A DNA stretch of 45,956 nt from a virus. Both the position numbers and the translations under genes were made by a program. The notes beneath the pieces were generated by a model. The model was given only the letters and a program-made list of their open reading frames with translations. It did not search any database and was not told the origin of the DNA. This document shows positions 1 to 43,661 of the stretch, piece after piece. The stretch is from IMG/VR virus record IMGVR_UViG_3300033571_013083, positions 1 to 45,956 of that record; one strand, 5' to 3'. Each line of letters begins with the position of its first letter. Position 1 is the first letter of the stretch.

Positions 1-102
1 AAAGCCGGACGCCTTGAGCGCTCCCCCCACGCTGTCAGAAGCGAAGAAGGAGGTAAGGGCGTCGGGCTGTGGCTGCTTGGGATCAGGCAGTGCGGGGGGC
101 AT
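1..102 (-). CDS. Probable scaffold protein, N-terminal part (cut by window start)
   Basis: An ATG at 102-100 opens a frame of 34 codons that runs off the window start. It begins MPPALPDPKQ and overlaps the end of the 893-aa gene (stop at 83) by 20 nt. If the window is a circular contig, this frame continues without a phase change into the open frame that enters at base 45956. That would give one 212-residue protein ending at 45420, just upstream of the major capsid gene. The N-terminus is Pro-rich and lacks recognisable motifs. The join and the scaffold role are inferences. If the contig is not circular, this is just the start of an unknown truncated gene. Confidence 0.5.
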   Translation of the reverse strand, partial: MPPALPDPKQPQPDALTSFFASDSVGGALKASGF

Positions 103-2764
103 TTTCTGGTCGGCGGACGCCGCGATAAGTTCCCTTGGCTCGCTTCTCTCGAGCAATGCGCAGAAGAATCTGGATTTCGTCAGGCGTCAGAACCTGGCGT
201 GGGTTTGGTCCTTGGGTGGGCCGACCGGCCTTTTGGCCTGGTCGGTCAACCTTGACTTGATAGCGCTCAACTGGCTGGCCCTCGGTCTTTCCCCCACGAT
301 AAGGAGCATTGACTGGGGAGTAGACATCAATCCCATACTGCTTGAAGGCCTTAAGTTCCGCCTTGCTAAACTTCCTAGATGGGGCAGGAGGTGGCTTTAC
401 GCCACTCTTTGGATACTTGACAGGTACCTTTGGCGTGGGTTTAGTTCTTGGCTGGGACGGGGAACGAAGCCCCATTGCAGCAGTACGACGCACCTGCAAC
501 CCAGTTTCCTTTCGCGCACCCTTTGTGGCTTGTGGCAGAGACAGGGCCTCAAGTAGCTTGCTAATCAACGCATCCAGCTTTTCGGAAGGAGCAGCAGGCT
601 CCTTGACGTCTGGCGCTTGGCGACGAGATCTAACAACCGGAGCTCGCTTCATCTCCGGAGTAAGCTTGGTGGCGTAACCAAAGAATGGCAATCGGCCTGT
701 GGCTGGCTTTCGAGCAGGAGTCGTACGTGGCGCCTCCGCCGGTTGCTCGGGGGCTGGACCGGTGACAGGCTTGACAACGTCAATGATCTTTCCAGAGAGG
801 TCTTGGGCAAGAGGACGAATCATGCGTCCAGACTTGTCACGTCTGGCACCCAGCTGGGCAAGTACAGCCTCACCACCCTCAACACTCATCAGCGATTCAA
901 CAGTGGTGTTGAGAATGGAGTCAGCATTTTCCTGTGACATCTTTTTGCCACTGACCATCTGGGCAGCGTTGCGACGCATCTTCAAGAAGTCAGCTGCAAT
1001 GGACCGTGGGTTCTTGTTGCTGTTCAACTTCTCGATGATTGCCTTGCCCTCCTTTGTGAGAGCAATGGCTTCAGCGGAACGAGCCTTCTCAAACTGACTG
1101 GGAATTACGCCCTCTCGAAGGTTGAATCCACCAAGAGCGCTGGTTACGTAGTCGCGGCTACTACGCATCTTCTCCCCATACTGCATGGGTGGATTTGCTG
1201 GGATCTTGACACCCAAACTCTTGGCAATGGCTGGAAGATCTTTGCCCTTTACCAACCTTCGGAATTGCTTAGGGTTAAGCGGTGGGAGCTTGGCCTCCCT
1301 ACGCGCAGCTTGGATGTCAGCGGGCACACCCTTCGGTCGAGATCCTGCTGCTTTTTCCAGTGCAGCAGCTACATCATTGGGTACCCCACGTGGAGTTGTC
1401 AGTTCGGGACCGCGCCTACCGCTCTTCTTGCTACCTTGAATAGCAGCTCCTTCAACAGCTCCAGACTCTTCAATGAGACGCTCACGAGATTCTTGGGGGG
1501 TGTCAAAGTGTCGTGACTCTTGGGAGGCCTTGTTTGCAGCAGATTGCTCTCGTCGCTTGGCTGCCGCCTCACCAATGGACATCAGGTTTTCACGAGTAAC
1601 TGGGAGCTTGGTTTCTCGCTCTGCGTTCTTGATGGCAAGTTCAACTTTGGTCTTGATCTGTGCCATGCGCTCAGCCTGGGCTTCAGCATCTCGAAGCTTG
1701 ACAAGCGCTTGGTTACTGTCTGGGGTACCAGACTTGAACTTTCGGAAAGCCGCGCGGGCAGCAGACTCGGCGGCCTGCAGCTTGGGAAGAGCTTCTGTAG
1801 CCTGCTTCAGGATTTCTGCAGCCGGCACAGGCTTGTCAATCCCGGCATGGCTAATCATCAGCTCACCCTTGGAGCGCTCAATCTTGATCTTGGCTCCACG
1901 AAGGAATGCACCAAGCGTGGGGGTGACCTTGGGAAAGTCAGTGATTGTTGGGCGCTCACGAAGAATGGGTGGACGTCCGCCCTTTGATCCGTACTTGCTT
2001 GCACGCATCACTGCGATGCGCTCACTCGGATCGGTCGCAAGCCGCTTTCCACGCGGAAAGACTGATTCAAAACCAGGAGATCCTGGTTTTCCTTCTTCTG
2101 GTTTACGCTTTGGTGGGGGGAGAATGCCCTTTTTGATTGCTTCCCGAAGTTCCGGTCGCCGGGACATGAGAATGCTTTGAGTTGCCTTCTCCATTTCCTC
2201 GGGGCGAAGAAGGAGTCCCTTTTCGTCTCCGCCAGCAATGGTTTCAACTCGGAACTTCATGGAGGGGGTCGCTCCCTGCAAGACCCGCTCCGCCACCTTC
2301 TTCATCTCTTCTGGCGTGACTACGTTCTTTGCGCCCAGAATTTCACGGAGCTTGGCAAGTCTGGCATCATCTGGGTCCACGATTTCCGCACCAGCCGGTG
2401 ACTCCAGGATAGTTCGCGAATCTCCACCCTTGTCGTACTCACGGCCGTATGCTGTTTCCTTGGCTCGGACTCCCTTTCGAGCCTTGACATTTGCGGTGAG
2501 TACGCGAGCGCCACGAATGTACTCGTTGGCCAGCTTCTTTTGCTCAGCCGTGGCCTTGGGGTTCTTGAGGATGCTTTCTGCCCGGCGTGTCAACTCAAGA
2601 GCAAGAGCTTCATCGGAAAACGAAACACCCCGAAGAGCTGCGTCCCCCGTAAACTGATACTCGCCCTCCGCAACACCACGAGGCTTGCCATACTTGGGCT
2701 TGACCAATGCCTTGAATTCTGGAGACAGCTTCTCGAGAATATTCAGTAGGTTGAACTTGGCCAT
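83..2764 (-). CDS. Large basic protein of unknown function, probably virion-associated (893 aa)
   Basis: I do not recognise a family. The protein is 893 aa, very rich in Lys, Arg, Ala and Pro, with long probably disordered stretches (for example residues 210-270 and the last 200) between short helical segments rich in E, A and K. There is no Walker motif and no portal- or terminase-like signature. The start ATG at 2764 abuts the previous minus gene (stop 2764), so translation is likely coupled. It sits in the late cluster between the 144-aa gene and the probable scaffold. Position, size and basic character fit an internal or DNA-contacting virion protein, but that is inference. Confidence 0.6.
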   Translation of the reverse strand: MAKFNLLNILEKLSPEFKALVKPKYGKPRGVAEGEYQFTGDAALRGVSFSDEALALELTRRAESILKNPKATAEQKKLANEYIRGARVLTANVKARKGVRAKETAYGREYDKGGDSRTILESPAGAEIVDPDDARLAKLREILGAKNVVTPEEMKKVAERVLQGATPSMKFRVETIAGGDEKGLLLRPEEMEKATQSILMSRRPELREAIKKGILPPPKRKPEEGKPGSPGFESVFPRGKRLATDPSERIAVMRASKYGSKGGRPPILRERPTITDFPKVTPTLGAFLRGAKIKIERSKGELMISHAGIDKPVPAAEILKQATEALPKLQAAESAARAAFRKFKSGTPDSNQALVKLRDAEAQAERMAQIKTKVELAIKNAERETKLPVTRENLMSIGEAAAKRREQSAANKASQESRHFDTPQESRERLIEESGAVEGAAIQGSKKSGRRGPELTTPRGVPNDVAAALEKAAGSRPKGVPADIQAARREAKLPPLNPKQFRRLVKGKDLPAIAKSLGVKIPANPPMQYGEKMRSSRDYVTSALGGFNLREGVIPSQFEKARSAEAIALTKEGKAIIEKLNSNKNPRSIAADFLKMRRNAAQMVSGKKMSQENADSILNTTVESLMSVEGGEAVLAQLGARRDKSGRMIRPLAQDLSGKIIDVVKPVTGPAPEQPAEAPRTTPARKPATGRLPFFGYATKLTPEMKRAPVVRSRRQAPDVKEPAAPSEKLDALISKLLEALSLPQATKGARKETGLQVRRTAAMGLRSPSQPRTKPTPKVPVKYPKSGVKPPPAPSRKFSKAELKAFKQYGIDVYSPVNAPYRGGKTEGQPVERYQVKVDRPGQKAGRPTQGPNPRQVLTPDEIQILLRIAREKRAKGTYRGVRRPENAPRTA

Positions 2765-3198
2765 TAGAGGTTGATCTTGTCTTGGGTGTCCTTGAGACGG
2801 GCGACCACTTCGCCCGCAGCAGATCTTAGTGTGCCGGGTTTGACTATGCCAAACATCTTTCGTCCCTGCTCAAGCATGGAGACAGTGTCGTCGAGGTTGT
2901 CAATGATCTCCTGTGGCGGCAGGGTGTTGCGGGTACCGGGACGGTGCTGGGATCCGGGCAGAGAGAAGTCGGGTGCGCCGGGGCGGGTGATGGTGCGCAT
3001 CGCCAGCATGAAGGCGATGAGGTCCACAAGCACACGGTCCTTACGTGCGTGGATGAGGGGCACGTTCAGTTGGCGGCAGAGCCGGCGAAAGGAGCGACGA
3101 TTGAGGCCGAGAGCTGATAGCTCGCGGATCAGGTAGTCCTCACCGACGAGGCGCATCCCCCCACCGAAGGAGATGTACATCAGGTTGTGTGAGCTCAC
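2764..3198 (-). CDS. Small protein with a helix-turn-helix-like segment (144 aa)
   Basis: The start is a GTG at 3198 overlapping the upstream stop (GTGA); an in-frame ATG at 3180 is an alternative. Residues about 25-60 (ELSALGLNRRSFRRLCRQLNVP and the following helix) look like a helix-turn-helix, and the C-terminal 55 residues look helical. Translational coupling to genes on both sides puts it in the late operon. A small-terminase-like DNA-binding role would be tempting, because no terminase is visible in the window, but nothing beyond the possible HTH supports it. Confidence 0.5.
   Translation of the reverse strand: MSSHNLMYISFGGGMRLVGEDYLIRELSALGLNRRSFRRLCRQLNVPLIHARKDRVLVDLIAFMLAMRTITRPGAPDFSLPGSQHRPGTRNTLPPQEIIDNLDDTVSMLEQGRKMFGIVKPGTLRSAAGEVVARLKDTQDKINL
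3195..3198 (-). other. GTGA stop-start overlap
   Basis: The stop of the 435-aa gene and the GTG start of the 144-aa gene share these bases. This four-base overlap decides the start of the downstream gene and predicts reinitiation. Confidence 0.6.
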
Positions 3199-4502
3199 CG
3201 GTTAAACATGTTCAACATGGGGTTCAGGTTGAATGGGTTGTTTGCATCAACCGGGGGCTTGTAGTTGGGAACCGGCCTGACAGGTGCGTTGACAAACTTG
3301 TCGCGCTCACGCATGAACTCGGTGCGGTTCAACGCTGCTGGGTCACGTGCCTTAATTTGCTCAAGGAACATGCGCAGCTCTTGCAAACTCATGCCACTGG
3401 CAATGAGACGATCAAACTGATGTGCGACCTCGGGTGAAAGATTCTTCACCTCATCCCGCATTGCGCGAATGTCGTCCATCTCCTGGTTGTACTTGGTGGT
3501 GTCCCTGGCTGCTGACATGGCTTCACGCTGACGCCTTACAGCCTCCACGTCCCCCTTATCAATTTGTTCCCGGGTCACCTTGGGGAGTGGATCAAACTCT
3601 CGATTCCGCATGTTATCGAGGGCAACCGAGTCAAGACCAGGCTGCGGTGCACTCCGAGCCTCCATCTCACTTGCCTTCTTAAACTGCTCATACTGCTTAA
3701 GGAGTACATCGTCATATCCCCTTAGAGCATAATCAGCGGCTTCAGCTGCAGTACGGCTAGTTACGTTTGGATTGGTGCGCATGTACCACCTGGCAAATCG
3801 GTCTCTTTCCCTCTGGTCCGCTTGAGCCTTTCCTGCAGCAGCAACAGACTCGGCGCGTGACTTTCGACTTGCTGCAGCCTCGTTGTTTCGCTGCTGAGAC
3901 TGAAGGTCACGCAGACGATTCATGATGAGTCTGCGGGCCGGATCGTTAGGTGGAAGAGTTGAAAGAGTCTTCAGGTGTCCATTGATCTCATCCTTGATCG
4001 GATCACCTGTAATGGGCGAAGTTGCTGACTGTGACGAACCGCCACCAGAGCCACCAGATTGGGAGCCCGTTCCAGTTCCTGCAGGAGGTTGCGAACTAGA
4101 ACTGGGGCGGGTTGAAGCAGACATGGGTGTGGCCTGAATTGGGGTGGCCTGAATTGGGGCTGGAAGCTGCATCCCCGGACCGGTTCCGGTTGCACCACCA
4201 GTGACGCTTGGAACATTCATGCCGGCTGCAGCCGCCTGCAAATCTGCAAGACGTCGCATGCAATCTTGGTACTGAGCTCCATTTTTGTCTGGATACTGTG
4301 TACACTCCTGGGCAACCTGAGCGACCTGCTCCTCAAGCGACACAGCCCGACCTCCGCCGCCTCCACTCTGTCGCATCTTCTGAGCCTGAGACGAAAGATC
4401 TGAATACAAAGACTGGTTCGGGGAAGCTGCGTAGCGCGTGCCCGCTGTCATTGGGTTCGGAGTCGGACTCGACGGGTTCTGCGGCAGTTGGAATGAAGAC
4501 AT
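3195..4502 (-). CDS. Virion-type protein with disordered Gly/Ser/Pro/Gln linker (435 aa)
   Basis: This is the first gene of the minus block. The start at 4502 (MSSFQLPQ) is chosen because everything upstream is antisense to the helicase gene. No good ribosome site precedes it, so a start inside the gene is possible. Residues 1-150 are low complexity, with a tandem PIQAT repeat from a 15-bp duplication near 4132-4161. The C-terminal 250 residues are helical and charged. Its N-terminus resembles that of the 360-aa gene at 31795-32877 (MSSFTPSSPSP). A structural role is inferred from location only. Confidence 0.55.
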   Translation of the reverse strand: MSSFQLPQNPSSPTPNPMTAGTRYAASPNQSLYSDLSSQAQKMRQSGGGGGRAVSLEEQVAQVAQECTQYPDKNGAQYQDCMRRLADLQAAAAGMNVPSVTGGATGTGPGMQLPAPIQATPIQATPMSASTRPSSSSQPPAGTGTGSQSGGSGGGSSQSATSPITGDPIKDEINGHLKTLSTLPPNDPARRLIMNRLRDLQSQQRNNEAAASRKSRAESVAAAGKAQADQRERDRFARWYMRTNPNVTSRTAAEAADYALRGYDDVLLKQYEQFKKASEMEARSAPQPGLDSVALDNMRNREFDPLPKVTREQIDKGDVEAVRRQREAMSAARDTTKYNQEMDDIRAMRDEVKNLSPEVAHQFDRLIASGMSLQELRMFLEQIKARDPAALNRTEFMRERDKFVNAPVRPVPNYKPPVDANNPFNLNPMLNMFNR

Positions 4503-4518
4503 AGTTGGAGGATACGCG
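4503..4518. promoter_or_regulatory. 16-nt gap between divergent start codons
   Basis: Only 16 nt separate the ATG of the minus-strand 435-aa gene from the ATG of the helicase. It holds the helicase Shine-Dalgarno (GGAGGA, 4507-4512) and has no room for promoters. Transcription of each block must therefore start inside the opposite gene, or further away, giving overlapping antisense transcripts. Confidence 0.55.
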
Positions 4519-5916
4519 ATGAAAGTGCTGACGCAACGGAACCCGCTCAACAGTGCGGAGCCGATGGTGATTGCCCGGGCTATTTTGCGAGCAAGGTGGA
4601 CGACGCCGCAGGGCCGATTGGGTTTGTGGGAGTGGCGGGGCGAGCCGTGGGAGTGGTATGCGGGGAAGTGGGTGAGGAGAGATGAGCGGTGGTTGGAGGA
4701 GGCGCTATGGTTGGCGATGGAGGATGCACATGTGCAGACGCCGACTGCGACGGGTGTAGTGGTGAGGAGGCTGGGACCCACGATGCAGACTGTGGGCAAT
4801 GTGCAGGCGGCCCTGAGGGCGCTGATCCGGTTGAAGCAGAGCTATGCGCCGGCGTGGCTGGGCAGTGTGGTGGATACCCCGGAGCTGGATCGGTGCGTGG
4901 CGTTCGAGGATGTGGTTGTGGATGTGCTGACGGGCAAGACGATGCAGCGGGATGAGCTGCTGTTTGAGCCCGTGGTGGTAGGGTGTCAGTGGGATCCGGC
5001 GGCGGAGTGCCCGACGTGGCGTGGGTGCTTGGAGCAGTGGAGCGGTGGGGACGAGAAGTGGGTCAAGCTGCTGCAGAGGGCCATGGGGGCCATGCTGATG
5101 CCGGGGAGAAGGTGGCAGAGGTGGCTGCTGATGCAGGGCAGGGTGAGAGGTGGTAAGGGCACGATCATGCGGGTCGTGAAGAACCTTGTGGGCGATGGGT
5201 TTAGGGGGTTGAGCATGGCCCAGCTGGCTAGTCAGTTCGGGTTGTGGGGGGCTGAGGCAGCTAGGGTGCTGAGCGTAAGTGAATTTGGGGCGCTGAACAG
5301 CAGGGAAAGTGAATTGGCGGTGGCGTCACTGAAAAACATTGTGGGTGGGGACCCGGTAAGCATTGATCGGAAGTACATGGAGCCCATCCGGGATGTGGTG
5401 TTGCCCGGGTTCTTGGTGGTTCAGAGCAATGAGATCCCCAAGTTGCCCAACAGGGGGCAGGGTTTGGCCAGCAAGATGCTGGTTTTGCCCTTCTCGAACA
5501 GCTTCTTGGGTAGGGAAGACCTGCAGTTGGGCGAGAAGTTGGCTCAGGAGACGGCGGGTATTGCTGCCTGGGCGCTGGAAGGGGCCAAGGAGCTGCTGGA
5601 GACGACCGATTCGAGCTCGCTGTGGCCGGTTCCGACGGCTGCAGAGGAGGTTGTGGGCCGATTCCAGTCGCTGAATAACCCGGTGCAGGACTTCTTGGAG
5701 GCCCATTTCGTGGAGAACGAGACGGGCTTCGTGAGCACGACCAACATTTGGGGTCTGTGGCGCACGTGGAAGGTGAAGGTTGGGTATCGGGAGGAGCTGA
5801 GCCAGGCCAAGTTGGTGCATAGGGTGGTGGAAGAGGGCGCTTGGAAGCTTACAAGGGCCAGATTGGGCGAGGAGCGGATCCGGGGGGTCAGAGGTCTGGC
5901 CGTAAGGTCCGAATAG
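4519..5916 (+). CDS. D5/P4-type SF3 replicative helicase
   Basis: This is a superfamily-3 helicase of the phage P4 alpha / poxvirus D5 type, expected to unwind DNA at the phage origin. Residues about 90-200 fit the D5 N-terminal region. Walker A is GRVRGGKGT with K213, the Walker B-like acidic residue is E255 in SVSEFG, and a sensor Asn lies in VVQSNEIP. An NRGQGLASK segment probably supplies the arginine finger. No archaeo-eukaryotic or DnaG primase domain is fused; at 465 aa it is shorter than P4 alpha. The start at 4519 has GGAGGA 8 nt upstream. The next 527 nt are non-coding and iteron-rich, a typical place for the cognate origin. Confidence 0.85.
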   Translation: MKVLTQRNPLNSAEPMVIARAILRARWTTPQGRLGLWEWRGEPWEWYAGKWVRRDERWLEEALWLAMEDAHVQTPTATGVVVRRLGPTMQTVGNVQAALRALIRLKQSYAPAWLGSVVDTPELDRCVAFEDVVVDVLTGKTMQRDELLFEPVVVGCQWDPAAECPTWRGCLEQWSGGDEKWVKLLQRAMGAMLMPGRRWQRWLLMQGRVRGGKGTIMRVVKNLVGDGFRGLSMAQLASQFGLWGAEAARVLSVSEFGALNSRESELAVASLKNIVGGDPVSIDRKYMEPIRDVVLPGFLVVQSNEIPKLPNRGQGLASKMLVLPFSNSFLGREDLQLGEKLAQETAGIAAWALEGAKELLETTDSSSLWPVPTAAEEVVGRFQSLNNPVQDFLEAHFVENETGFVSTTNIWGLWRTWKVKVGYREELSQAKLVHRVVEEGAWKLTRARLGEERIRGVRGLAVRSE

Positions 5917-7672: not shown

Positions 7673-7704
7673 TCGGCCCCCTATCCCCCCACGAAAGGAA
7701 CCCC

Positions 7705-8946: not shown

Positions 8947-9507
8947 ATGTCTTTCTATCGCATTGACCGCATCCACCAGTCCGACCTGCACGCCCTCTCC
9001 ATGGGCAACATTCCCATCCGCGTCACCGAATCCCCATTCGGCGACCGCCTGGAACTCGTCGACCCCAACCCCACTACCCCCGCCATCGACCCCGACGGCT
9101 GCGACACCCCCAACTTCTCACTCCGTACCTGCGATGCCTCGTTCGCGGAACTCCTCCGCGTAGCCAACGCCGCAGCCCGTCGTGCTGCCACCGAGTTCCT
9201 CATCTCCAAGCTCGGTCGTCGCTCCGCGGCCCGTCTCAATTCGACAGACGACCAGCTTTCCCGTAGCATGGCAGCCTTCTTCGGCCGCTTCAATGCAGCC
9301 GACATCGACGCCATCGCACTCCCCCCACGTATCCGCGATCGCAACGCCAACCCGTTCCTCCCCACCTCCGGCGACCCTGATTTCCGTCGCGCATCCGGCA
9401 AGTATCGCCGTGTGCGCCGTCTCGATAGCGACCGTCGTCTCGGTGACGACGCGTCCTGGTTCACCATCCACCACTTCGCACCCTCCAACAGGAGCACTGC
9501 CCGATGA
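8947..9507 (+). CDS. First gene of the AAA-VWA operon, unknown (186 aa)
   Basis: The start has AGGAG ten nt upstream. The protein is Arg-rich in its second half (residues 70-175) with a possible helical bundle at 70-115, and has no known motif. Its stop overlaps the next start (ATGA). It leads a run of six genes, at most 2 nt apart, that ends with the AAA+ ATPase and VWA protein, so it may be a partner or substrate of that machine. Confidence 0.65.
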   Translation: MSFYRIDRIHQSDLHALSMGNIPIRVTESPFGDRLELVDPNPTTPAIDPDGCDTPNFSLRTCDASFAELLRVANAAARRAATEFLISKLGRRSAARLNSTDDQLSRSMAAFFGRFNAADIDAIALPPRIRDRNANPFLPTSGDPDFRRASGKYRRVRRLDSDRRLGDDASWFTIHHFAPSNRSTAR

Positions 9508-10055
9508 AGCCCATCTTCTCCATCACCATGGTCTTTGGTACCGGTGATGACGCCCTCCTCTCCGTCCTCCGCACCCGTCCCTTCTCCGCTGGCTCACCCG
9601 ACAAGAAGCTCGTGATGTTGGAGCGAGTCGAGTCCTCGGACATGGAGGCCTACGTACAGACCCCCGTCAACGGACGCAAGGGAACCTACGCCGTGATGTA
9701 CACGCAGTCCTCCCCCGACCACTCCATCCCCGACGCATTCTGGAACGCCTTCTGGGGTGCCATCTCCCGCAACCTCCAATTCCAAGCCGTCTGCCGCAAC
9801 GCCACCATCCTCAAGGACCAGGAGCAGATCCCCTCACCATCCCTCGCAGCCGGTAAGGACGCGGTCATCGCCGCACTCAACGCCGGCATGGACTTCGAGC
9901 GCATCATCATCAACGACAAGCTCGCCCCCTCCGCCTTCCTCACCCTGGCCAACAAGGCCAAGCACAACTCCGTCTCCTCCTCCACCTACGACCCGTACTA
10001 CAAGGACTCGGACATCCCCGACGACATCGACCGCCACGAGAAGGGCTACAACTAA
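9504..10055 (+). CDS. AAA-VWA operon gene 2, unknown (183 aa)
   Basis: It overlaps the previous stop by four nt (ATGA) and the next start by one (TAATG). It is a mixed alpha/beta globular protein with no recognised catalytic motif; the last 30 residues are polar and Asp/Tyr-rich. Function is unknown. The strict coupling suggests defined stoichiometry with its neighbours. Confidence 0.65.
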   Translation: MKPIFSITMVFGTGDDALLSVLRTRPFSAGSPDKKLVMLERVESSDMEAYVQTPVNGRKGTYAVMYTQSSPDHSIPDAFWNAFWGAISRNLQFQAVCRNATILKDQEQIPSPSLAAGKDAVIAALNAGMDFERIIINDKLAPSAFLTLANKAKHNSVSSSTYDPYYKDSDIPDDIDRHEKGYN

Positions 10056-10594
10056 TGACCACCATCGCCCAATACAACCTCGACAATCCACCCGTGGGCC
10101 TCGCGCCCATCAGCATCGACACGCACAGCATCCGTTCTCTGCGCGTCGAGATCCGCTCTCGCTTCTCCGCACTCGCCAACCTGCGAACCACCCTGCTCCT
10201 CGGCACCGATGTCTACGAGGAGATCGAGTTCGACAAGAACGCACCCATCACCACCAACAAGCGCATGCTCGAGTACGCCGGCGTCAAGCTCGTGCACCCC
10301 GACACCCTCGACCAACGCGCACGCACGACCGACCTCAACATCGTCGGCAACCATCTCAACTTCCTCATCGCCTGTCTCGAAGCGCTCAACATCTACGTCA
10401 CCAACACCAACCACCTGAGCGACTTCGAACTCTACACCACCCTGTTCTGTGACGTACTCGAACAGGAACTGCCATTCCTTCCGCCATCAGTTGGCGTCTG
10501 CGAACTCATCGACATGAACTACAACCGTGCCGAAGCAGACCCCGTCATTGATCGTGACTCCACACTCCCGCAACCCCCAGCAAGGATCTTCTGA
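10055..10594 (+). CDS. AAA-VWA operon gene 3, unknown (179 aa)
   Basis: The start overlaps the preceding TAA (TAATG). The protein appears mostly helical, with a hydrophobic helix near residues 95-118 (NHLNFLIACLEALNIYVTNTNHL) followed by an acidic region. No family is recognised. It sits in the middle of the coupled operon that encodes the ATPase and VWA protein. Confidence 0.65.
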   Translation: MTTIAQYNLDNPPVGLAPISIDTHSIRSLRVEIRSRFSALANLRTTLLLGTDVYEEIEFDKNAPITTNKRMLEYAGVKLVHPDTLDQRARTTDLNIVGNHLNFLIACLEALNIYVTNTNHLSDFELYTTLFCDVLEQELPFLPPSVGVCELIDMNYNRAEADPVIDRDSTLPQPPARIF

Positions 10595-10596
10595 CC

Positions 10597-10797
10597 ATGG
10601 TCATGCCCGCCCCCGAATCCACTGACCTCGAGACGCGTCTCGCCAATCTCGAGAAGGCATTTCTCACCCTGGTCAACGTGGTCAAGCTCGACCACGAATC
10701 GCAGCAACTCTTCGATCAGAAGATGGATCTCATCAACGCCAAGGTGGACGCACTCGCCGCGTTCATCAAGCTCGCACCCACCACCAAGGAGGACTGA
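10597..10797 (+). CDS. Short coiled-coil protein in the AAA-VWA operon (66 aa)
   Basis: It starts 2 nt after the previous stop; a second in-frame ATG at 10603 is possible. Residues 9-58 show heptad-like spacing (LETRLANLEKAFLTLVNVVKLDHESQQLF and onward), so it is likely a small coiled-coil oligomer or adaptor. AAGGAGG near its end serves as the ribosome site of the ATPase gene. Confidence 0.6.
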   Translation: MVMPAPESTDLETRLANLEKAFLTLVNVVKLDHESQQLFDQKMDLINAKVDALAAFIKLAPTTKED

Positions 10798-10798
10798 C

Positions 10799-11830
10799 AT
10801 GTCATCGTTCAACATCTCGCCCGCTGCTCTCGCTGCTCTGCGCGCACGCGTCAACGCCATCAAGCCCATCACCCCAACCCCGTCCGCACGCCTCACATCA
10901 CCGGACCCCATGCCACCCGAAACCCACAAGCCCGCACACGACGACGGCCTGTTTGCCGCATCCCCCCACGGTCTGTCCGTCCCGGGCAACACGCCCGCAA
11001 CCCCGACCGAACGCATCGACCTGGAGATCGACGCCAACCTCTCCACCTACCTCCACGCCATTGCTGCTGACCCGCAGATCCACAACGTCCGACTCATCGG
11101 CCCGACCGGCTGCGGCAAGACTTCCATCGGCCAGTGGCTGGCCCAGGAGACCCGTCGTCCCTCGCTCATCATGGACTGCGCCGTGATCCGTGAGCCGCGC
11201 GACTGGTTCGGCTATCGCACCATCGTCAACTCCCAGATCACGTGGGTCGACTCGACCTTCGTCCGCACTGTCGAGGCAGGCAACGCCATCATCGTGCTCG
11301 ACGAACTCAACCGTGCCCCAGCTTCCGTTCTCAACGGTCTCTTCGGCCTGCTCGACCATCGTCGTGAGTGCCACGTCGAGGAGCGCGGTCGTCCCGTGCG
11401 CGTCGGACCCAACACCATCTTCATGGCCACGACCAACGTCGGTGCCAAGTACGTCGGCGCATCCCCCATCGACTCCGCCATCCGCAACCGCTTCGCACGC
11501 GTGATCGAAGTCTCCTACCTCAACCCCACCGAAGAGGCCAACCTCCTCACTCGCCGCACCAATCTGCCCCTTGCCCAGGCCTCAGCCCTGTGCGAGGTCG
11601 CAGCCACCACCCGTTCCAAGACCTCAGCCATCGAGGCCTTCTCCACGCGTGAACTTCTCGCCATTGCCTATGACCTGCACCGCTTTGGTGAGCAGTCTCT
11701 GCGCTACACCATGCTCTCCAAGGTCGAGGACCCTGCCCAGCGTGCGGCCCTCGCCACCCTCCTCACCGGCAAGTTCCCCTCGATCATGGGTACTGCTACT
11801 TCCACCACCACCAACACGGAGCCCTTCTGA
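10799..11830 (+). CDS. MoxR/CbbQ-like AAA+ ATPase (343 aa)
   Basis: Residues 1-75 are Pro/Ala-rich and disordered. The AAA+ core follows: Walker A GPTGCGKTS at about 100-108, Walker B IIVLDELNR at about 163-171, sensor 1 FMATTN near 207 and an RNRF arginine-finger segment near 230. The ELNR Walker B and inserted loops fit the MoxR/CbbQ/NorQ group, which works as hexamers with VWA-domain partners to remodel or insert metal into target proteins. The partner gene follows directly with a TGATG overlap. RavA-ViaA, CbbQ-CbbO and CobS-CobT are the cellular analogues. The phage substrate is unknown. Confidence 0.85.
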   Translation: MSSFNISPAALAALRARVNAIKPITPTPSARLTSPDPMPPETHKPAHDDGLFAASPHGLSVPGNTPATPTERIDLEIDANLSTYLHAIAADPQIHNVRLIGPTGCGKTSIGQWLAQETRRPSLIMDCAVIREPRDWFGYRTIVNSQITWVDSTFVRTVEAGNAIIVLDELNRAPASVLNGLFGLLDHRRECHVEERGRPVRVGPNTIFMATTNVGAKYVGASPIDSAIRNRFARVIEVSYLNPTEEANLLTRRTNLPLAQASALCEVAATTRSKTSAIEAFSTRELLAIAYDLHRFGEQSLRYTMLSKVEDPAQRAALATLLTGKFPSIMGTATSTTTNTEPF

Positions 11831-13947: not shown

Positions 13948-13960
13948 TGGAGAATCTCCC

Positions 13961-14245
13961 ATGCCATCAGATGCGAACGGAACTAACCTGCGTACTTTGT
14001 GGCACGCATTCAAGCAGCGACCCGTACCCGCCATCACACTTGTGGATCTGCGCCATGAAGATACAGGCGCACGAATCCCCACCCTGTGTGTCCTCGAGTC
14101 CAGCCCAGACGGGGACAGACTCTTCCCCTACGCCTTCATGATTGACCGAGACCTGCACGACTTCTGTCGCAAGCTCCAGGTCCCCGAGCAATACGAAGCC
14201 ATCTGGGATTGGTGCATCCCACCCAAGAAGGAACCCACCGCATGA
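13961..14245 (+). CDS. Unknown protein (94 aa)
   Basis: The start at 13961 is preceded by TGGAGA. It is a small globular protein with regular beta spacing around ITLVDLRHEDTGARIPTLCVLE and a helix DRDLHDFCRKLQ. No family is recognised. It is coupled by an ATGA overlap to the uracil-DNA glycosylase gene, so a DNA-repair or nucleotide-related role is possible but unsupported. Confidence 0.65.
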   Translation: MPSDANGTNLRTLWHAFKQRPVPAITLVDLRHEDTGARIPTLCVLESSPDGDRLFPYAFMIDRDLHDFCRKLQVPEQYEAIWDWCIPPKKEPTA

Positions 14246-14919: not shown

Positions 14920-15299
14920 TGGATACCACCTTCACTCTTCGTCTCTCAGAGCTCATCGACTACGCGGAGAAGAAGAAGTACGGCTCCGACAAGAAGACGC
15001 TCGAGGACTTCCAGACCTCAGCCTTCGCTGGATGCGAGGACTCCTACGACATCCTCATCGAGGGCAAGATTAAGATCTTCTACTCTGAACCAACTCCAGT
15101 GCCGTATGGTGAGACCACCACCAACCTGCCTGAGTCGTTTGACATCGAGGACATCAGCATCGACGACATCCACTTCGATAACAACGGTCGTGCTGACCAC
15201 CTCGAACTGGACCTCATCAAGAAGGGAATCCTCAATACCATCGAGGATCTCTCAGCCTCTTACATCGTCAACAACATCGAAGACTTCTTTGAATTCTGA
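14916..15299 (+). CDS. Acidic protein of unknown function (127 aa)
   Basis: It begins at an ATGATG overlapping the glycosylase stop; either ATG (14916 or 14919) may be used. The protein is strongly acidic, with many Asp/Glu in residues 70-127 and alternating Ile/Asp (EDISIDDIHFDNN). No family is recognised. It ends with TGATG overlapping the sigma-like gene. Confidence 0.65.
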   Translation: MMDTTFTLRLSELIDYAEKKKYGSDKKTLEDFQTSAFAGCEDSYDILIEGKIKIFYSEPTPVPYGETTTNLPESFDIEDISIDDIHFDNNGRADHLELDLIKKGILNTIEDLSASYIVNNIEDFFEF

Positions 15300-17508: not shown

Positions 17509-17517
17509 ACTGGTGGG

Positions 17518-22241: not shown

Positions 22242-22298
22242 AATTTACTTCGTTCCGTGTCTCACTCCATTTTCAACTCCTTTTACGAAAGGCTCACT

Positions 22299-29581: not shown

Positions 29582-29949
29582 CAAAGCACCATGGGGTTGA
29601 AGCGGGGAGTGCGGTGCCGCCACATGCGGGCATACCGATCCACCACATCAGGTAGTGTAATGGTGCCAATGTGGAGAGTCGATACCCGCTCAATAGGGTC
29701 GTAGTTGGAGATCAACATGGACCACGGGCGGTGCATGGCGCGAAGGGTTCGGATCTCCCAGAACCAGGCCCGCACCTGCTTCGGGCGAAGGTAAGGTCCC
29801 CCCACGACGAGGGGGAGGGGGGTGAGGTTGAGGACGGGGAGGTCGGTACGGGTGTCGTACTCAAGGTGCCGGCCGAGGGATAGCCGGGCCTTCCCGTCGG
29901 CGGCGTGGTCTCGGCAGATGTCCGCGCTAAGCAAGCGCCAGTTCACCAT
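29581..29949 (-). CDS. Unknown protein in virion operon (122 aa)
   Basis: A compact globular protein rich in Arg and Trp with beta and helix alternation (LPVLNLTPLPLVVGGPYLRPKQVRAWFWEIRTLR). It is coupled by TGATG overlaps to the 611-aa gene before it and the 240-aa gene after it. One exact TCCCCCCACG (29797-29806) lies inside. No family is recognised. Confidence 0.6.
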   Translation of the reverse strand: MVNWRLLSADICRDHAADGKARLSLGRHLEYDTRTDLPVLNLTPLPLVVGGPYLRPKQVRAWFWEIRTLRAMHRPWSMLISNYDPIERVSTLHIGTITLPDVVDRYARMWRHRTPRFNPMVL

Positions 29950-32877: not shown

Positions 32878-35327
32878 CAGTTGAATCTCCGATCGGTGTC
32901 CAGTATCCGTCCAGTCAGCGAGAACGCAAGCAGACGCATATCCACGCCTGCGATATGGCACTCAAACCCAGGACTCAGGGTGGACCACACGGCACCATGC
33001 TTTCGGATTGGTGAGTTGGATGCCGACACACCAGAACCATTTGCCACAGTTTGGATATTCCCATTCCTGTCCAGTGGTCGGCCAGAGATATAGGGTGTGG
33101 TTTCTGCGCCCCTATAAAGGAGGGTCCACCACGTGCCCACGGCGGGAGTATTATTACCAACCAGTTCGTAGTAGGGGGCAGCAGAGGACACCTGCTTCAT
33201 GCGGAAGAAGTCCTTGAACTCCGGCATACCCGGCTGCACCTGCATGCCCAGATTGCCACCTACCCACCGCTGCACAATCGGAGCAAACGACACGTACCGG
33301 TTAGTTGCAACATTGGTAGCCCAGTTAGTGATGTATGTTTGGACAGCCCCATTCCCAGTGGATGCAGTCTCGTCCGAGCCGCCTGCAGACGACCACTGGT
33401 AAGCCTTGCAGTCGTACTCAGTGGCGTCAATGGTTGGAGCCGAACCTGTCACAGCGAGGTTTCGGGCGGTCCCCCCACAGAGGTTCTTGTTGCCATCGCC
33501 TGTGCGCTCGTGGTCCACAATGTAGACGCCAAAGGTGGTGGCGGAGTCGCGCTTCACAAAGATGGCGCGGCGCTCAAGGTAAGAACCAGAGTGGACGTTG
33601 CCAGTCTTGACATAACGGAAGGGAAGGTCCACCAACTGAGTAACTCTGTTTGTGCCAAACCACAATAGACCAGCTTCTCCATTTGCCAACCCAGCACTTG
33701 AGTCAGGCTTCATGATGGTAAGACACTGACCCTTGGCGTCATATGCCATCTGGATGCTTGACTTGTTTCCAAGCCAAGACACGTTGATAAGGTTGTCCAA
33801 ACCTGTGATGTCTTCGACCTGACCATCCATTGTCACGGCCTTGAGTCCACCACCTGACACAAAGTAGACGGTGGTACCCACCGACTCCAACGCATAGGGA
33901 CCACTCAACCCGTAACCAAGATGGCCTTCTTCAACGCGCACAAAGTTGTTCTGCCTACCGATTCGGTAGATGCGATCACTACTAAACCCAATCATGTAGT
34001 TACCAACCTGTCGCAGACCAAAGATCTCATTGCCTGGGGTCTTGGGCACCCAACGATTGAATGGGTTAAAGTTGTCTGCCACCAACTCAGATACCGAACT
34101 CCATCGCATGTCACCCAGTGATCGTGGGGGGTACTCAGGCGTGATGGGATTCTCTGAACTAGCCACAGCTCCAGCAAAATCACTGTCTTTCAGTCGAGAC
34201 ACAAACAACACGTTTGAAAGGAACTGGGCCACACCACCCTTTGGACCCACGCTATCTGAGCGTGTCTTGTCGATAAAGACATCCTGATACACCAACTGGG
34301 TGTCGGGAATCGTGACGCCCAAATTTTTATCCGTTATAGATGTGGAGTAGTAATTTGAGTCGGTGATATCAATAACTTTCTCAAGGTGAAGTGTGCCGGA
34401 TCCATAGTAGGTAGTGCCACCTACACCCCCACCCAAGTTAACAGTTCGGTAGATAAGCGCCCGGTTATAGATGCCACGGAATTGTCCTACACGGAACTTC
34501 AAATGATGGTCACCACTACCACCAGATGCAGTAGATGTGATGTTAAAGGTAACCGTATTTGAAATGGCCGACTTCCTACCTGTGTCCGTGTTCATGTACT
34601 GAACAGCAAACGTATGATTGCCTACCTCTCGTGGTATAGAAGCAAGACCAGCACTAACGGTCGTGTCGCCATCTCCAAATACCACAAGATCATAACGACC
34701 AGCAGTACCATCATCTTGGTTAGCAACCGTAATTGCATCGGCTTCGGTTTCGCTAAGAGCTGAGATAGCTTTAGGTGGATTGCCTGGTCCGACGTTGCTA
34801 GAGGATGGAGTCCATCTGGAACTTGAGATGCTGAGGGTGCACATCTTGGGCACAAACCCCCGTGCAAAGAAGTACACAAACTTGCCGCTGGATTGAACCT
34901 CAATCTCGGTCGTATCGGACCCATCCGTCGTTGCGGTTAGACTAAGAACCTCTCGAGTCGTATTTGCAACCTGCGGTTCCACCCATGCAGCTCCATCATG
35001 AAACTTGCCATAGAACTTCAAGGTATGGGTGCTGGAAACTAGGGTGTACTCAGCCCAGATATACCCATACAGGTATGTGCTGCTGCTGGTCAGAACAGTC
35101 ACAGGCCAGAAGCCACGGACATTTGCCATCGTGGCGGGTTGGAACGTCCCCCCATCTCCTGTCAGTCGCTTGAAACCGGGGTGGGTACGGAGGCAACCAG
35201 TCTCGTTGCCGTCAAAGCCGACGAGGTCCCAGGCAATCTCCTTGGGGAGAATGGCGCGGGACTGGGCCTTCGACATGGTCGTAGGGCCCGAGAAGTTCCA
35301 TGTCCAGTTTGTGTCTTGGTCAGCCAC
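32877..35327 (-). CDS. Tail tubular protein B-like (tail nozzle) candidate (816 aa)
   Basis: A beta-rich protein of the size of T7 gp12-type nozzle proteins, placed after the adaptor-like gene. The N-terminus (PKEIAWDLVGFDGNETGCLRTHPGFKRLTGDGG) resembles the opening of such proteins; the middle has repeated propeller-like strands (YFVSGGGLKAVTMDGQVEDITGLDNLIN). The start is uncertain: a TTG at 35339 or a GTG at 35327, the latter with GAGG upstream. The GTG overlaps the preceding gene by 8 nt. Confidence 0.65.
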   Translation of the reverse strand: MADQDTNWTWNFSGPTTMSKAQSRAILPKEIAWDLVGFDGNETGCLRTHPGFKRLTGDGGTFQPATMANVRGFWPVTVLTSSSTYLYGYIWAEYTLVSSTHTLKFYGKFHDGAAWVEPQVANTTREVLSLTATTDGSDTTEIEVQSSGKFVYFFARGFVPKMCTLSISSSRWTPSSSNVGPGNPPKAISALSETEADAITVANQDDGTAGRYDLVVFGDGDTTVSAGLASIPREVGNHTFAVQYMNTDTGRKSAISNTVTFNITSTASGGSGDHHLKFRVGQFRGIYNRALIYRTVNLGGGVGGTTYYGSGTLHLEKVIDITDSNYYSTSITDKNLGVTIPDTQLVYQDVFIDKTRSDSVGPKGGVAQFLSNVLFVSRLKDSDFAGAVASSENPITPEYPPRSLGDMRWSSVSELVADNFNPFNRWVPKTPGNEIFGLRQVGNYMIGFSSDRIYRIGRQNNFVRVEEGHLGYGLSGPYALESVGTTVYFVSGGGLKAVTMDGQVEDITGLDNLINVSWLGNKSSIQMAYDAKGQCLTIMKPDSSAGLANGEAGLLWFGTNRVTQLVDLPFRYVKTGNVHSGSYLERRAIFVKRDSATTFGVYIVDHERTGDGNKNLCGGTARNLAVTGSAPTIDATEYDCKAYQWSSAGGSDETASTGNGAVQTYITNWATNVATNRYVSFAPIVQRWVGGNLGMQVQPGMPEFKDFFRMKQVSSAAPYYELVGNNTPAVGTWWTLLYRGAETTPYISGRPLDRNGNIQTVANGSGVSASNSPIRKHGAVWSTLSPGFECHIAGVDMRLLAFSLTGRILDTDRRFN

Positions 35328-36570: not shown

Positions 36571-36591
36571 TCCCCCCACGGTATGTGGGGG
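36571..36591 (-). terminator. Hairpin in the lysis-unit leader
   Basis: On the minus strand CCCCCAC pairs with GTGGGGG (plus positions 36585-36591 with 36573-36579) over a 5-nt loop, 14 nt after the glycosyltransferase stop. One arm is the exact motif TCCCCCCACG (36571-36580). There is no U-run. Just upstream on the minus strand, TGATATACT could be an extended -10 promoter element. Confidence 0.45.
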
Positions 36592-37612: not shown

Positions 37613-37989
<377 letters not shown>

Positions 37990-37992
37990 TTG

Positions 37993-38289: not shown

Positions 38290-39236
38290 GGGTACCACTG
38301 GGGATTGTCACGGGTGTCCTTGGCCCAAGACTTGCCCGTGCGCATCTGCATGTTTGCCAGGTTGTCGCCAATCGTCTTGATGGCTGACCGGTACTGCATG
38401 TTCAGCAGTTGCATGTGGGACTGGGCGATCTTGCGCCACGCACCCAGCTTCATGGAACAAGCCAGCGACACAGACTCTACCAGACCCTGCGACTGGGCAG
38501 GACAGATCTCATAAGCGTAATACGAACTTGCACCAGCCGTGTTGGTAGTGAAGGGTCGGCGAAGGGTGCACACCCGAGTTGCCGGGTTGTAGGACTCGAT
38601 GACCCGCTCCTCGCGCACCGTAAAGCCTCCGGACTTGTTGAGCAGACGAAGGACCTGGCCGGCGTATGCGTTCTCACGGATGTCAATCTGACCCAGACCA
38701 CCTGTGCCCACAGTGGAGGGAAGGGTGAACGTAGTGCTTGTGGTGAGTGTACCACCGTTCAAATCCGTAAGCGCGCAGTAGTGCGGCATCATGTCGCCAT
38801 TGGTTGTGTAGCGGATAGTCCACGTCAGGTTGCCGTTAGTGGCTTGAGGGAACGGGCGGAAGCAGATCATGTTCCCCTCAATGGCCCAGTTCTGTCCCCC
38901 CACGCTCATTCGGTGGTGCGGGTACAGGTCAGCAGTGGGAATACCGTCGCTAGTTTGTGCGGCAGTGGAGCCGGTGTACTGCACGATCTCGTGGACTTCA
39001 CCGACGCATGGAGGGATGACGTAGCACTCTTGGTTGGCGACGAGGGTGATGTCGTAGGAGAGCAGCACCGGGTTGTCGGCGTTCATTGAGACGCGGCTCC
39101 ACACATCCACAAGGGACGGCATCACCACGTGGTTGACAAGGAACTGGTCCGTGTACTTGGCGTCAAAGTCCGCGTCGTCGAGGTAGCCTCGAACGCGTTC
39201 AATCACTGTCTTCAGAAACGATCCTGTGGAGTCCAT
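38286..39236 (-). CDS. Head-tail adaptor (tail tubular protein A-like) candidate (316 aa)
   Basis: The N-terminal 60 residues are helical with IERVRGYLDDADFDAKYTDQFLVNHVVMPSLVDVWSRV. A long beta-rich middle follows (DITLVANQECYVIPPCVGEVHEIVQY) with a C-terminal helix that includes WRKIAQSHMQLLNMQYRSAIKTI. This helix-beta-helix plan and the position between capsid and nozzle genes fit podovirus gp11/gp4-type adaptors. The family is called by plan and context only. Confidence 0.65.
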   Translation of the reverse strand: MDSTGSFLKTVIERVRGYLDDADFDAKYTDQFLVNHVVMPSLVDVWSRVSMNADNPVLLSYDITLVANQECYVIPPCVGEVHEIVQYTGSTAAQTSDGIPTADLYPHHRMSVGGQNWAIEGNMICFRPFPQATNGNLTWTIRYTTNGDMMPHYCALTDLNGGTLTTSTTFTLPSTVGTGGLGQIDIRENAYAGQVLRLLNKSGGFTVREERVIESYNPATRVCTLRRPFTTNTAGASSYYAYEICPAQSQGLVESVSLACSMKLGAWRKIAQSHMQLLNMQYRSAIKTIGDNLANMQMRTGKSWAKDTRDNPQWYP

Positions 39237-39239
39237 GGA

Positions 39240-39755: not shown

Positions 39756-39769
39756 AGGAGGTCCTTTCG

Positions 39770-40318: not shown

Positions 40319-41570
40319 TGGTCGTAGGTAGTGTAGCAGCTGGAATAAGACCCAATGCTGCCAAAAGTTTGTAGTTCTTCTTAATGAACTCCAACGTGCT
40401 GCCCTTGACGCCCTGACTTATCAGTTCAAGCAGATCACCACGCATAGCGGTAGCGGATTGAGGAGTTCGATTTGCAGAAATACGGGCGTCGTGCATCTGC
40501 AAGACAGTCTCAAGCATTGCGGGATTAATGGGCCCACTTTGTCCTTGTGGAGTAATGTTTCCAATGGATGTAGCAATGTAGTCATCCAGTGGTTCTCGAT
40601 TGAATTTAGGTCCAGTACGAACATTAAAGCCCGGATACTTATAGACGTTTTCCAATGAGAAGGGGTAGTACTGTCCAGTCTTTGGATCCCAACGTCTTAC
40701 CGCACTACCAATAGGCGTAAACCAACCTTCTCGAGTGCTTCCTTGCATGTAGTGCGGGTCAAGTTTAGCACTCAACTTCTTGCCAACAGCTCGGTAAAAG
40801 TCCATTGGGTTTCGTTCTCGAGAAACGTCAAAAGCCCGCAATCCACCTGGAGACACATAAGCACGTAAAGTGGAACCAAGCTGGTTGGAGATGCGTTGTA
40901 ACACGTCCAGAGCTTCTGCCTTTGAAGCAGCCGTAATGCCTTCCTTCGGGTGTACTTCTCGGAAGCGACCAGTGCTCGGCGTGTCAATATCAAGGAATGG
41001 GATCCTACCCAACTTTATAAGCTCCAACGGACCAGTCTTGGGGGTCGCTGCCAAAACTTCCATAACTTGAGCCCCAGGACGTGGAAAGAAGGGAGCGCTA
41101 TACAACTGGCCTTTCAACTCAGGATCGCGACCTGAGTATGAAAACATGCGGGGAGGAAGGCGCGTAATGGCCTGCGTTCCAAATTGTTCAGCTACGACTG
41201 GAGTCCGCAGTCGCTCTGCTAACAGGTACGCCTTGTATACCTTATTACGTAGTTGATTCTTAACGGAGATGGGAATAGACGGATCTTTAAGCACCGAAAC
41301 AGTGGCAGACACAGAACCTAAACGATCCGTCCAACTGCCTTGTCCCCCCATCAATTTGTAGAAATCGGCACTCTGGCCAAGTAGTTCACGAGCTAGTCCT
41401 TGAACATACTGCTCTTCTGAAAGTTCGCCTTGCAGAATCTTTTTTGCACCACGAACCTTCAACGTCGAAGGCTGTCGTGCTCCCGCAAACTCGCGAGTAA
41501 CTGGAAGACTTGGATCCGCACGAGGCAGGATCAAAACATCAGTTGGCAACCTACGTGGTGCAGGAGGCAT
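40299..41570 (-). CDS. Unknown late protein (423 aa)
   Basis: Basic and mostly globular. Residues about 200-290 (DVLQRISNQLGSTLRAYVSPGGLRAFDVSRERNPMDFYRAVGKKLSAKLDP) vaguely recall the core of archaeo-eukaryotic primases, but no catalytic DxD and His set is visible, so I do not call it one. The C-terminus has a short hydrophobic stretch (KLLAALGLIPAATLP). It sits in the virion cluster between the small basic proteins and the 182-aa gene. Confidence 0.55.
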   Translation of the reverse strand: MPPAPRRLPTDVLILPRADPSLPVTREFAGARQPSTLKVRGAKKILQGELSEEQYVQGLARELLGQSADFYKLMGGQGSWTDRLGSVSATVSVLKDPSIPISVKNQLRNKVYKAYLLAERLRTPVVAEQFGTQAITRLPPRMFSYSGRDPELKGQLYSAPFFPRPGAQVMEVLAATPKTGPLELIKLGRIPFLDIDTPSTGRFREVHPKEGITAASKAEALDVLQRISNQLGSTLRAYVSPGGLRAFDVSRERNPMDFYRAVGKKLSAKLDPHYMQGSTREGWFTPIGSAVRRWDPKTGQYYPFSLENVYKYPGFNVRTGPKFNREPLDDYIATSIGNITPQGQSGPINPAMLETVLQMHDARISANRTPQSATAMRGDLLELISQGVKGSTLEFIKKNYKLLAALGLIPAATLPTTNDNRTA

Positions 41571-41575
41571 TGCAT

Positions 41576-42122: not shown

Positions 42123-42377
42123 TTAGCAGTTCCATGCCCGAAGGGACTTGTTGATGCGGGAGTTGGGATCGTTGGCAGTCTTGGCGCTAGTGAGCTTGCG
42201 CTTCATGCCCTTCATGCGGGCGCAGAAGGAGTTGCGTCGCGAGCCACCTTCGGGCTGCGGTCGCTTCAAGTTGCCACCCGTAGCCTTGTTGTAGGCACGG
42301 CGGCCAAGTTCACTAAGTCCCCCCATGGGGTTCTTGTGCTTGGCCTTGAACTGGAACTTGGGCTTGCTGCTCGCCAT
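42123..42377 (-). CDS. Small basic DUF6321-like protein (84 aa)
   Basis: The ATG at 42377 overlaps the preceding TGA by one nt. Residues 18-84 (GGLSELGRRAYNKATGGNLKRPQPEGGSRRNSFCARMKGM..KRKL...RINKSLRAWNC) follow the DUF6321-type pattern GGLS..GR..YN..TG..LK.P...G..RR.SFCARM.GM....LT......KSL.AW.C. These small proteins are frequent in marine phages and are of unknown function, possibly DNA-condensing. Confidence 0.65.
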   Translation of the reverse strand: MASSKPKFQFKAKHKNPMGGLSELGRRAYNKATGGNLKRPQPEGGSRRNSFCARMKGMKRKLTSAKTANDPNSRINKSLRAWNC

Positions 42378-42610: not shown

Positions 42611-42612
42611 GG

Positions 42613-42927
42613 TCAGTCCAGTTTACGTCGCCATCCCATCTGGTAAAGAGCCCGGGCTATGGAGAGCGCAGTGGCATCTACAGCAGGCTCGTCCAGCTCA
42701 GGACGGGCTGCGTGTAGCACCTCGTGGATCACCGTCTCAAGCAGGTTGCGTTCGCCAAGGGATCGACGGACCTCAATGAGTGGGTGGCGACCTGGCTTGT
42801 CCTTGTCCCAGCAACGGCCCCAATCGGTACCCATGTTGCGGGGCGGAGACAGGGAGACGCGCCAGGTGCGGCCGTTGATCTTGACCCGGTAGATCAGTCG
42901 TCCTTGCGAATCAAGCGTGCGTCCCAT
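42613..42927 (-). CDS. HExxH zinc-metallopeptidase-like protein (104 aa)
   Basis: H68-E69-V-L-H72 in LLETVIHEVLHAARPELDEPAVDATALSIARALYQMGWR is a zincin-type motif with downstream Glu/Asp residues that could be the third ligand, as in short SprT/ImmA-like phage proteins. It may be a maturation protease or a lysis-associated peptidase; its position 3' of the capsid gene fits the former. It overlaps the metallophosphoesterase end by 34 nt. Confidence 0.65.
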   Translation of the reverse strand: MGRTLDSQGRLIYRVKINGRTWRVSLSPPRNMGTDWGRCWDKDKPGRHPLIEVRRSLGERNLLETVIHEVLHAARPELDEPAVDATALSIARALYQMGWRRKLD

Positions 42928-43661
42928 TGGCGTCCTCGATTGCGGTGGGAGGGGTCACGAACCAGATCGACTACGGCAATGGCAGCACCCCACTGGGAGG
43001 TGTCGCGGCGGTTCATCCACGAAGGCGACAAGGGCCCGCAGGTGCCGGCGTTCATGTACCAGTAGGGCAGGGGAATGGCCCGGGTGCGGTGGCACTGCGT
43101 GGGGGGAATAGGCCGGTGGGTGTGGCCACGGATGAACAGGCGGTGGGCTGCGCCCCCAGTGAGGTTCATGAACTGCAGGGCCTCCAGCTCGTCGGAGGAC
43201 TGGCCACAGTCAAAGCCATGGGTCAGGACTACGGGGCCGATCTCGAGGCAACCCTTCTTGTCCTTGCGATACGGGGTCCAATGCCAGTGCTTGGCCTCAG
43301 AAGCGAAGGGTTCTGTGCGGATGAAGTCGGTGACGTCCCGTAGGGCCTTGGGGATGCGACGGGGGTCCTGGGACTTCAAGTTGTCGTCGTGGTTCCCCAT
43401 GATGGCGTGGAAATGAACACGTGGGGGGAGCACCTCACGCAGGGATGCGAGGAAGGCGGCAGCATGCCGATACTCGTCAAGGAGGGTGTGGTCGTGCTCG
43501 TCCGGGTGCACGGAGGCGGCTGAGGCCTCGAAGATGTCTCCGAGGTGCACAAAGTGCGTAACCCCATCCAGAGCGGATAGGGTCTCAAGCAGCCAGTGAT
43601 GGACGTCGGGGGGAGTGAATGGGGAGTGAGTACAGCTGATAGCAGCTATGCGGGTAGGCAT
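42894..43661 (-). CDS. Calcineurin-like metallophosphoesterase with altered first metal ligand (255 aa)
   Basis: The start at 43661 (MPTRIAAISCTH) has AGGAGAT six nt upstream; a longer frame exists but reads through the hairpin. Motifs in order are ISCTH (residues 8-12), HLGDIFEA, IMGNHDDN, LTHGFD and IRGHTH, so GD, GNHD, H and GHTH are intact. The usual first Asp of (S)DxH is Cys10. Related phage enzymes are phosphoesterases or nucleases of unclear substrate. It lies directly after the capsid gene. Confidence 0.8.
   Translation of the reverse strand: MPTRIAAISCTHSPFTPPDVHHWLLETLSALDGVTHFVHLGDIFEASAASVHPDEHDHTLLDEYRHAAAFLASLREVLPPRVHFHAIMGNHDDNLKSQDPRRIPKALRDVTDFIRTEPFASEAKHWHWTPYRKDKKGCLEIGPVVLTHGFDCGQSSDELEALQFMNLTGGAAHRLFIRGHTHRPIPPTQCHRTRAIPLPYWYMNAGTCGPLSPSWMNRRDTSQWGAAIAVVDLVRDPSHRNRGRQWDARLIRKDD

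Follow-up and report, generated by a model that had tools for sequence, protein, structure and literature searches.

Among described systems, the closest parallel to the element analysed here is the Chi site of Escherichia coli, GCTGGTGG, an exact, G-rich and asymmetric octamer that is dispersed in coding DNA, over-represented and polarised, and that lies on leading strands (PMC8022716). Only a few bacteria have a known Chi-like sequence, and none has been assigned to most proteobacterial lineages (PMC8022716). In lambdoid phages the enrichment of Chi is typically about 2-5-fold, and Chi is over-represented in phages that have a recombinase and lack a RecBCD inhibitor (PMC3784561). Among phages, the closest precedent for a strand-biased word that runs through a whole family comes from T5, phiKMV-like and tf-like phages, whose nick motifs are repeated in the genome and common to relatives with little nucleotide similarity (PMC3517423, PMC11780129). 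Here we describe a word with comparable features, the 10-mer TCCCCCCACG and its 8-mer core TCCCCCCA, in a viral contig of 45,956 bases without end repeats (IMG/VR record IMGVR_UViG_3300033571_013083, analysed at its full length and called the window below). The word is a real, selected and sequence-exact signal, the strongest non-coding one that we found in these phage genomes. Whether it is a Chi-like site read by a helicase-nuclease of the RecBCD/AddAB type, most likely that of the host, appears to us about evenly balanced.

An exact word beyond composition and codon use

The original prediction had reported 16 exact copies of TCCCCCCACG between positions 22 and 43429, 13 on one strand and three on the other, and nearly 30 copies of the core, often preceded by G. 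Recounting reproduced the 10-mer figures exactly (13 plus, 3 minus) and gave 29 cores (21 plus, 8 minus) compared to about 3 expected, one per about 1.5 kb, with G as the preceding base in 18. Eight plus-strand and five minus-strand cores lie outside the 10-mers. All the copies listed here are exact matches.

TCCCCCCACG copies:
22-31, plus strand; core TCCCCCCA at 22-29
7684-7693, plus strand
9320-9329, plus strand
10961-10970, plus strand
13521-13530, plus strand
16027-16036, plus strand; within polA, position kept in close relatives (516-519 from the polymerase start)
16761-16770, plus strand; within polA
17214-17223, minus strand; within polA, position kept in close relatives
17320-17329, plus strand; within polA
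21486-21495, plus strand; within the Sak4-like gene
22882-22891, plus strand
29797-29806, plus strand; antisense to the gene that hosts the site
36571-36580, plus strand; intergenic
38895-38904, plus strand; antisense to the gene there
43098-43107, minus strand
43420-43429, minus strand

TCCCCCCA cores outside the 10-mers:
3156-3163, plus strand
12613-12620, plus strand
14885-14892, plus strand
24677-24684, plus strand
33470-33477, plus strand
35147-35154, plus strand
41343-41350, plus strand
42318-42325, plus strand; intergenic
2114-2121, minus strand
14740-14747, minus strand
20985-20992, minus strand
23132-23139, minus strand
24160-24167, minus strand

Chance, composition or codon use might produce an excess of this kind, and the guanine-cytosine (GC) skew does make C-rich words somewhat commoner on this strand. 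However, all composition and codon nulls failed. Markov models of order 0-5, applied to both strands, put the expected number at 0.15-0.6 for the 10-mer and 2.4-6 for the 8-mer, so the word remains in excess of a composition-matched count, as the original prediction had supposed; models of order k-2 say nothing here, since the sub-words on which they are built are filled by the word. When synonymous codons were shuffled within genes with the proteins kept, coding DNA contained 4.6 ± 1.9 copies of TCCCCCCA (maximum of 11 in 2000 runs) compared to the 25 observed. The cores use all three sense and two antisense codon phases, in genes of both directions, which together with the shuffle bears out the earlier view that protein coding does not explain them. 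Moreover, in assemblies made independently from many metagenomes TCCCCCCA ranks first among 8-mers, with reversed-pattern controls near zero. An origin by chance, composition or codon use is thus rejected as vanishingly improbable.

The signal is the recognition of an exact word and not a property of the C run, because versions with C5 or C7 and most one-base variants occur at about chance level. In the window, 23 of the 52 C6 positions lie outside TCCCCCCA, roughly what chance gives, so that the earlier description of other C6 contexts as rare was overstated; it is C6 flanked by T and A that stands above chance, and other C6 words do not share the enrichment. In seven related genomes TCCCCCCAC was observed 166 times compared to 4.0 expected, and neither the C5 nor the C7 version was enriched. 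The one-base variant GCCCCCCAC retains some enrichment (39 observed, 4.9 expected), and the last C may vary. A homopolymer property or a G-quadruplex was rejected on the same counts and on the requirement for the flanking T and A. Terminator hairpins were also rejected: inverted pairs about 25 bp apart are few (for example, 14044 plus and 14069 minus from the polymerase in genome G004), and most sites are single and lie in coding DNA.

Two further words were seen in the window. GAGCGCAT/ATGCGCTC has 10 copies compared to 1.3 expected (at 1665, 2016, 9897, 21942, 22626, 23538, 23953, 26524, 28684 and 45024), mostly in coding DNA, and is enriched in close relatives too. GGTGGTGG occurs 15 times on each strand and probably reflects glycine-rich coding; most relatives do not match this level.

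Spelling, polarity and turnover in a phage family

The words are carried by a family of uncultured phages of about 45-55 kb, from which 22 loci were collected by polymerase search and 80 by profile search. Comparison with related phages, proposed in the original prediction, showed the word to be family-wide, enriched and polarised. TCCCCCCA, the A word, is the top or near-top 8-mer in the lineage of the window and in two distant lineages (42-50% polymerase identity), and serves phages with a GC content of 45-60%. The top words of the other lineages are CCCCACCAGC (B), ACCCCCACTG (C), CCCCCACTC (D), ATTCCCCACTAG (F) and, weakly, TCCCCCACT (E). Each main lineage has its own word enriched 12-25-fold over expectation, and each word is near chance in most other lineages. 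On a maximum-likelihood tree of 66 polymerases, the B, C and D words each characterise one clade, the E word occupies two close tips, and the A word occupies three clades.

On the strand that does not encode the polymerase, the strong words are spelt GTGGGGGGA, GCTGGTGGGG, CAGTGGGGGT, GAGTGGGGG and CTAGTGGGGAA, and GTGGGG is common to all of them but not to the word of the weak lineage E. The B word is the complement of GCTGGTGGGG and contains E. coli Chi, which occurs 35-39 times per B genome of about 51 kb compared to 4-5 times for reversed controls. Close-pair scans of unrelated viruses, a method of low sensitivity, returned almost only local repeats, and dispersed enrichment was found in this family only. 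No relatives were found in phage records by megablast, or in phage or plasmid records with the capsid or exonuclease protein; the polymerase retrieved only remote phage polymerases from these records, with up to about 25% identity. A literature search by sequence returned no publication on the words.

With polA as the orientation reference, the C-rich form favours the polymerase-coding strand in the 11 divergent genomes compared, at a ratio of 249:121 (p = 2.6e-11 for a departure from 50:50; z = 4.6 once the words are masked and composition is allowed for). About 67-70% of the copies are on the majority strand, and the preference is seen in each lineage whose word is strong. Taken by itself, the window shows only a weak bias at 21:8 (p = 0.024 against 50:50 and p = 0.13 after composition), and the bias is secure only across the family. 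The earlier claim that polarity is independent of gene direction stands for the family, where the ratios are alike in plus-coding (69:31) and minus-coding (97:45) regions of seven circular genomes. The bias does not flip round the circular genomes, and minority copies are interspersed. The sign of the net GC skew agrees in 16 of 17 genomes; the G-rich form thus lies on the overall G-rich strand. At positions 9000-18000 of the window, the strand that codes for the plus-strand genes has a negative GC skew of unusual strength (-0.2 to -0.3).

Mycobacteriophage stoperators and FtsK KOPS are likewise asymmetric words that lie scattered through the DNA of a phage or a chromosome. The orientation of stoperators follows transcription, unlike the ratios given above. 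A packaging or DNA-translocation polarity signal, with multiple terminase sites or KOPS-like guides, would suit both the one prevailing orientation genome-wide and the complete relatives, which are circularly permuting contigs. Packaging sites are normally single, however, and KOPS show a stronger bias that reverses at dif, whereas the ratio here is about 70:30 and the strong bias flipping at the terminus that marks KOPS/SRS was not found. We consider this reading very unlikely. The window is evidently a partial genome, because the terminase and an adjoining late gene of about 700 amino acids (aa), both present in a complete relative, are absent from the record; the terminase of this phage lies in the missing part. 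No tRNA genes were found.

The polarity also bears on whether a phage nickase cuts single strands of virion DNA at the words, as happens in T5, phiKMV-like and tf-like phages. Nick consensus words are family-specific and strand-biased, number about 13-14 per roughly 45 kb and vary a little from one relative to the next (PMC3517423, PMC11780129), all of which resembles the present case. However, the copies in tf and Rembedalsseter are all one-stranded and nick sites are unevenly placed, whereas here about a third of the copies lie on the other strand in every lineage and the word is spread round the genome. With copies so far from being all, or nearly all, on one strand, we give nick sites little credence. 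A candidate T5 nick consensus, GCGCGGTG, was not frequent in T5 and was dropped.

Individual sites turn over. Between the window and a relative at 82% nucleotide identity, 20 of 22 sites are kept (4.6 expected); 11 of 21 (1.5 expected) are kept at 72% and six of 15 (0.2 expected) at 59%. Between lineages at about 52% nucleotide identity, coinciding sites fall to 1/11, 0/9 and 0/8, and genome totals are alike. Because place is conserved at high identity and turned over at about 52% with a constant number, the sites appear to be lost and gained under selection for density, that is, for number and not for place.

The word is kept at about 0.4-1.2 copies per kb, and its mean spacing across genomes is 0.8-1.9 kb. 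This spacing resembles Okazaki lengths and, with a bias that is uniform round the circle and agrees with GC skew, would fit a replication signal, either for lagging-strand priming or for a replication or nucleoid-like protein, polarised by one-directional replication. A third of the sites would nevertheless be wrongly oriented, known primase recognition words are much shorter, and just two of seven circular genomes have sites spaced more evenly than at random, on which ground regular spacing was also rejected as a general property. A replication signal seems to us improbable.

Candidate readers in phage and host

The original prediction listed Chi-like, primase or lagging-strand, and packaging roles without choosing between them. 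A Chi-like role fits best because the word is an exact G-rich octamer enriched 12-25-fold, with a uniform, gene-independent bias of about 70:30 and turnover of sites, because the B word contains Chi itself, and because phage P1 gives a matching calibration. The presence of a Sak4 recombinase and an exonuclease in the family phages may also count for it. For the recogniser, the biochemical effect and the direction of replication, we infer the following. An enzyme of the RecBCD/AddAB type would enter phage DNA at a double-strand end, such as the tail of a rolling circle, a fork that has broken or a concatemer that has been cut. On meeting GTGGGGGGA in the right orientation it would cease degrading, with a 3' single strand left to recombine, and the phage would, as a consequence, keep one copy at each interval of the observed length. 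Judging from how RecBCD encounters Chi, an enzyme travelling from low to high window coordinates would come upon the word in its majority orientation, and a mostly one-directional origin of phage DNA ends may explain the majority orientation and its uniform polarity on the circle.

The reader could instead be encoded by the phage: an AddB-like exonuclease, Sak4, the D5 helicase or another partner would then form a private Chi-like system, co-evolved with the word and independent of host RecBCD. The following genes of the window are conserved in all lineages:

4438-5916, plus strand: D5-type primase-helicase (DUF5906; PHROG 4e-46, Pfam 4.5e-9)
15511-17508, plus strand: family A DNA polymerase (PHROG 2e-42)
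17518-18096, plus strand: ERCC4-type nuclease (PHROG 3e-5)
19623-20885, plus strand: PD-(D/E)XK exonuclease (Pfam 1.9e-9)
21285-22190, plus strand: Sak4-like single-strand annealing/recombinase protein (PHROG 2.7e-10)
22257-22826, plus strand: 189-aa protein, possibly, on weak grounds, like a single-strand-binding protein (no match at E<=0.001)

The structure model of the exonuclease (pLDDT 88.8) is most like AddB of AddAB, which provided the top five Foldseek matches (best E 1.9e-5, probability 1.00). A reader of this kind would also agree with a spelling that follows the polymerase tree, with the same A word at 45-60% GC, with dispersed enrichment confined to this family in the close-pair scans, whose low sensitivity tempers the point, and with the absence of enrichment in a co-binned bacterium described below. 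However, the 420 residues of the exonuclease cover only about a third of AddB, presumably without the helicase-like region where AddB reads Chi, and none of the conserved genes was recognised as a RecB/AddA-type motor. We regard a phage-encoded reader as rather unlikely; it would be, to our knowledge, the first private viral Chi-like system.

Two other loci were noted in the window. At 10799-13947 (plus strand), a MoxR/CobS-like AAA ATPase precedes a 705-aa protein for which the databases gave no match; of the genomes compared, only those of the window's lineage have this pair. The product of 43760-45394 (minus strand) is the most conserved late protein across lineages and probably the major capsid protein, with no PHROG, Pfam or phage-record match.

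A genome-collection scan aimed at a host gave two short contigs in metagenome-assembled genomes (MAGs), and neither bin was enriched for the word. The single bacterial bin holding an A-word phage is a Myxococcales MAG with RecC, a candidate host. Its phage contigs contain TCCCCCCA 36 times compared to 2.8 expected. Contigs C7, C18 and C72 of MAG G033 (L178, L179 and L140) are dense in TCCCCCCA and are probably pieces of one family phage. No second copy of the phage polymerase was found in 379 Myxococcota genomes.

Several of these observations weigh against a Chi-like site read by a host enzyme. In the Myxococcales MAG, TCCCCCCA is not enriched (12 copies compared to 7.3 expected in 575 kb), so that either the phage was binned wrongly or the word is read by something other than the enzyme of that bacterium, and 113 sampled Myxococcota genomes showed no strong enrichment. 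The B word needs its trailing GG and is thus not simply E. coli Chi; the enrichment (10-25-fold) exceeds the level of Chi in lambdoids; the strand bias runs in part parallel to GC skew; and the spelling tracks phage phylogeny, which suits a phage-encoded reader as well.

Comparison with Chi and Chi-like sites

If the words are Chi, uncultured phage genomes disclose the Chi spelling of their hosts and hold a record of spelling evolution (GCTGGTGGGG, CAGTGGGGGT, GAGTGGGGG, GTGGGGGGA) that chromosomes alone have not given. Whichever reading holds, the word could help to assign phages to hosts.

The window word TGGGGGGA is not a described Chi and is not among the five proteobacterial Chi words listed in PMC8022716. 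The earlier statement that no match was known holds for this word, but a near match, E. coli Chi, lies one lineage away, in lineage B only. The Chi and Chi-like words of Haemophilus influenzae (GNTGGTGG), Pseudomonas syringae, where the reader is RecBCD (PMC5959072), and Lactococcus lactis, Staphylococcus aureus and Bacillus subtilis (PMC8022716) are also short, strict and lineage-specific and are read by RecBCD or AddAB; none of them equals GTGGGGGGA, CAGTGGGGG or GAGTGGGGG. With the features expected of Chi, namely an exact, short, asymmetric and over-represented word and, over the 11 genomes, a one-strand polarity independent of genes, the word behaves like Chi as far as sequence can tell, and its membership among Chi sites is predicted with the chances close to equal. 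It differs from E. coli Chi in its stronger enrichment and in a spelling that varies between phage lineages. Phage P1, with 50 copies of GCTGGTGG (31/19 by strand) in 94.8 kb and one control match, carries Chi at the same density as the word described here and with a similar strand bias.

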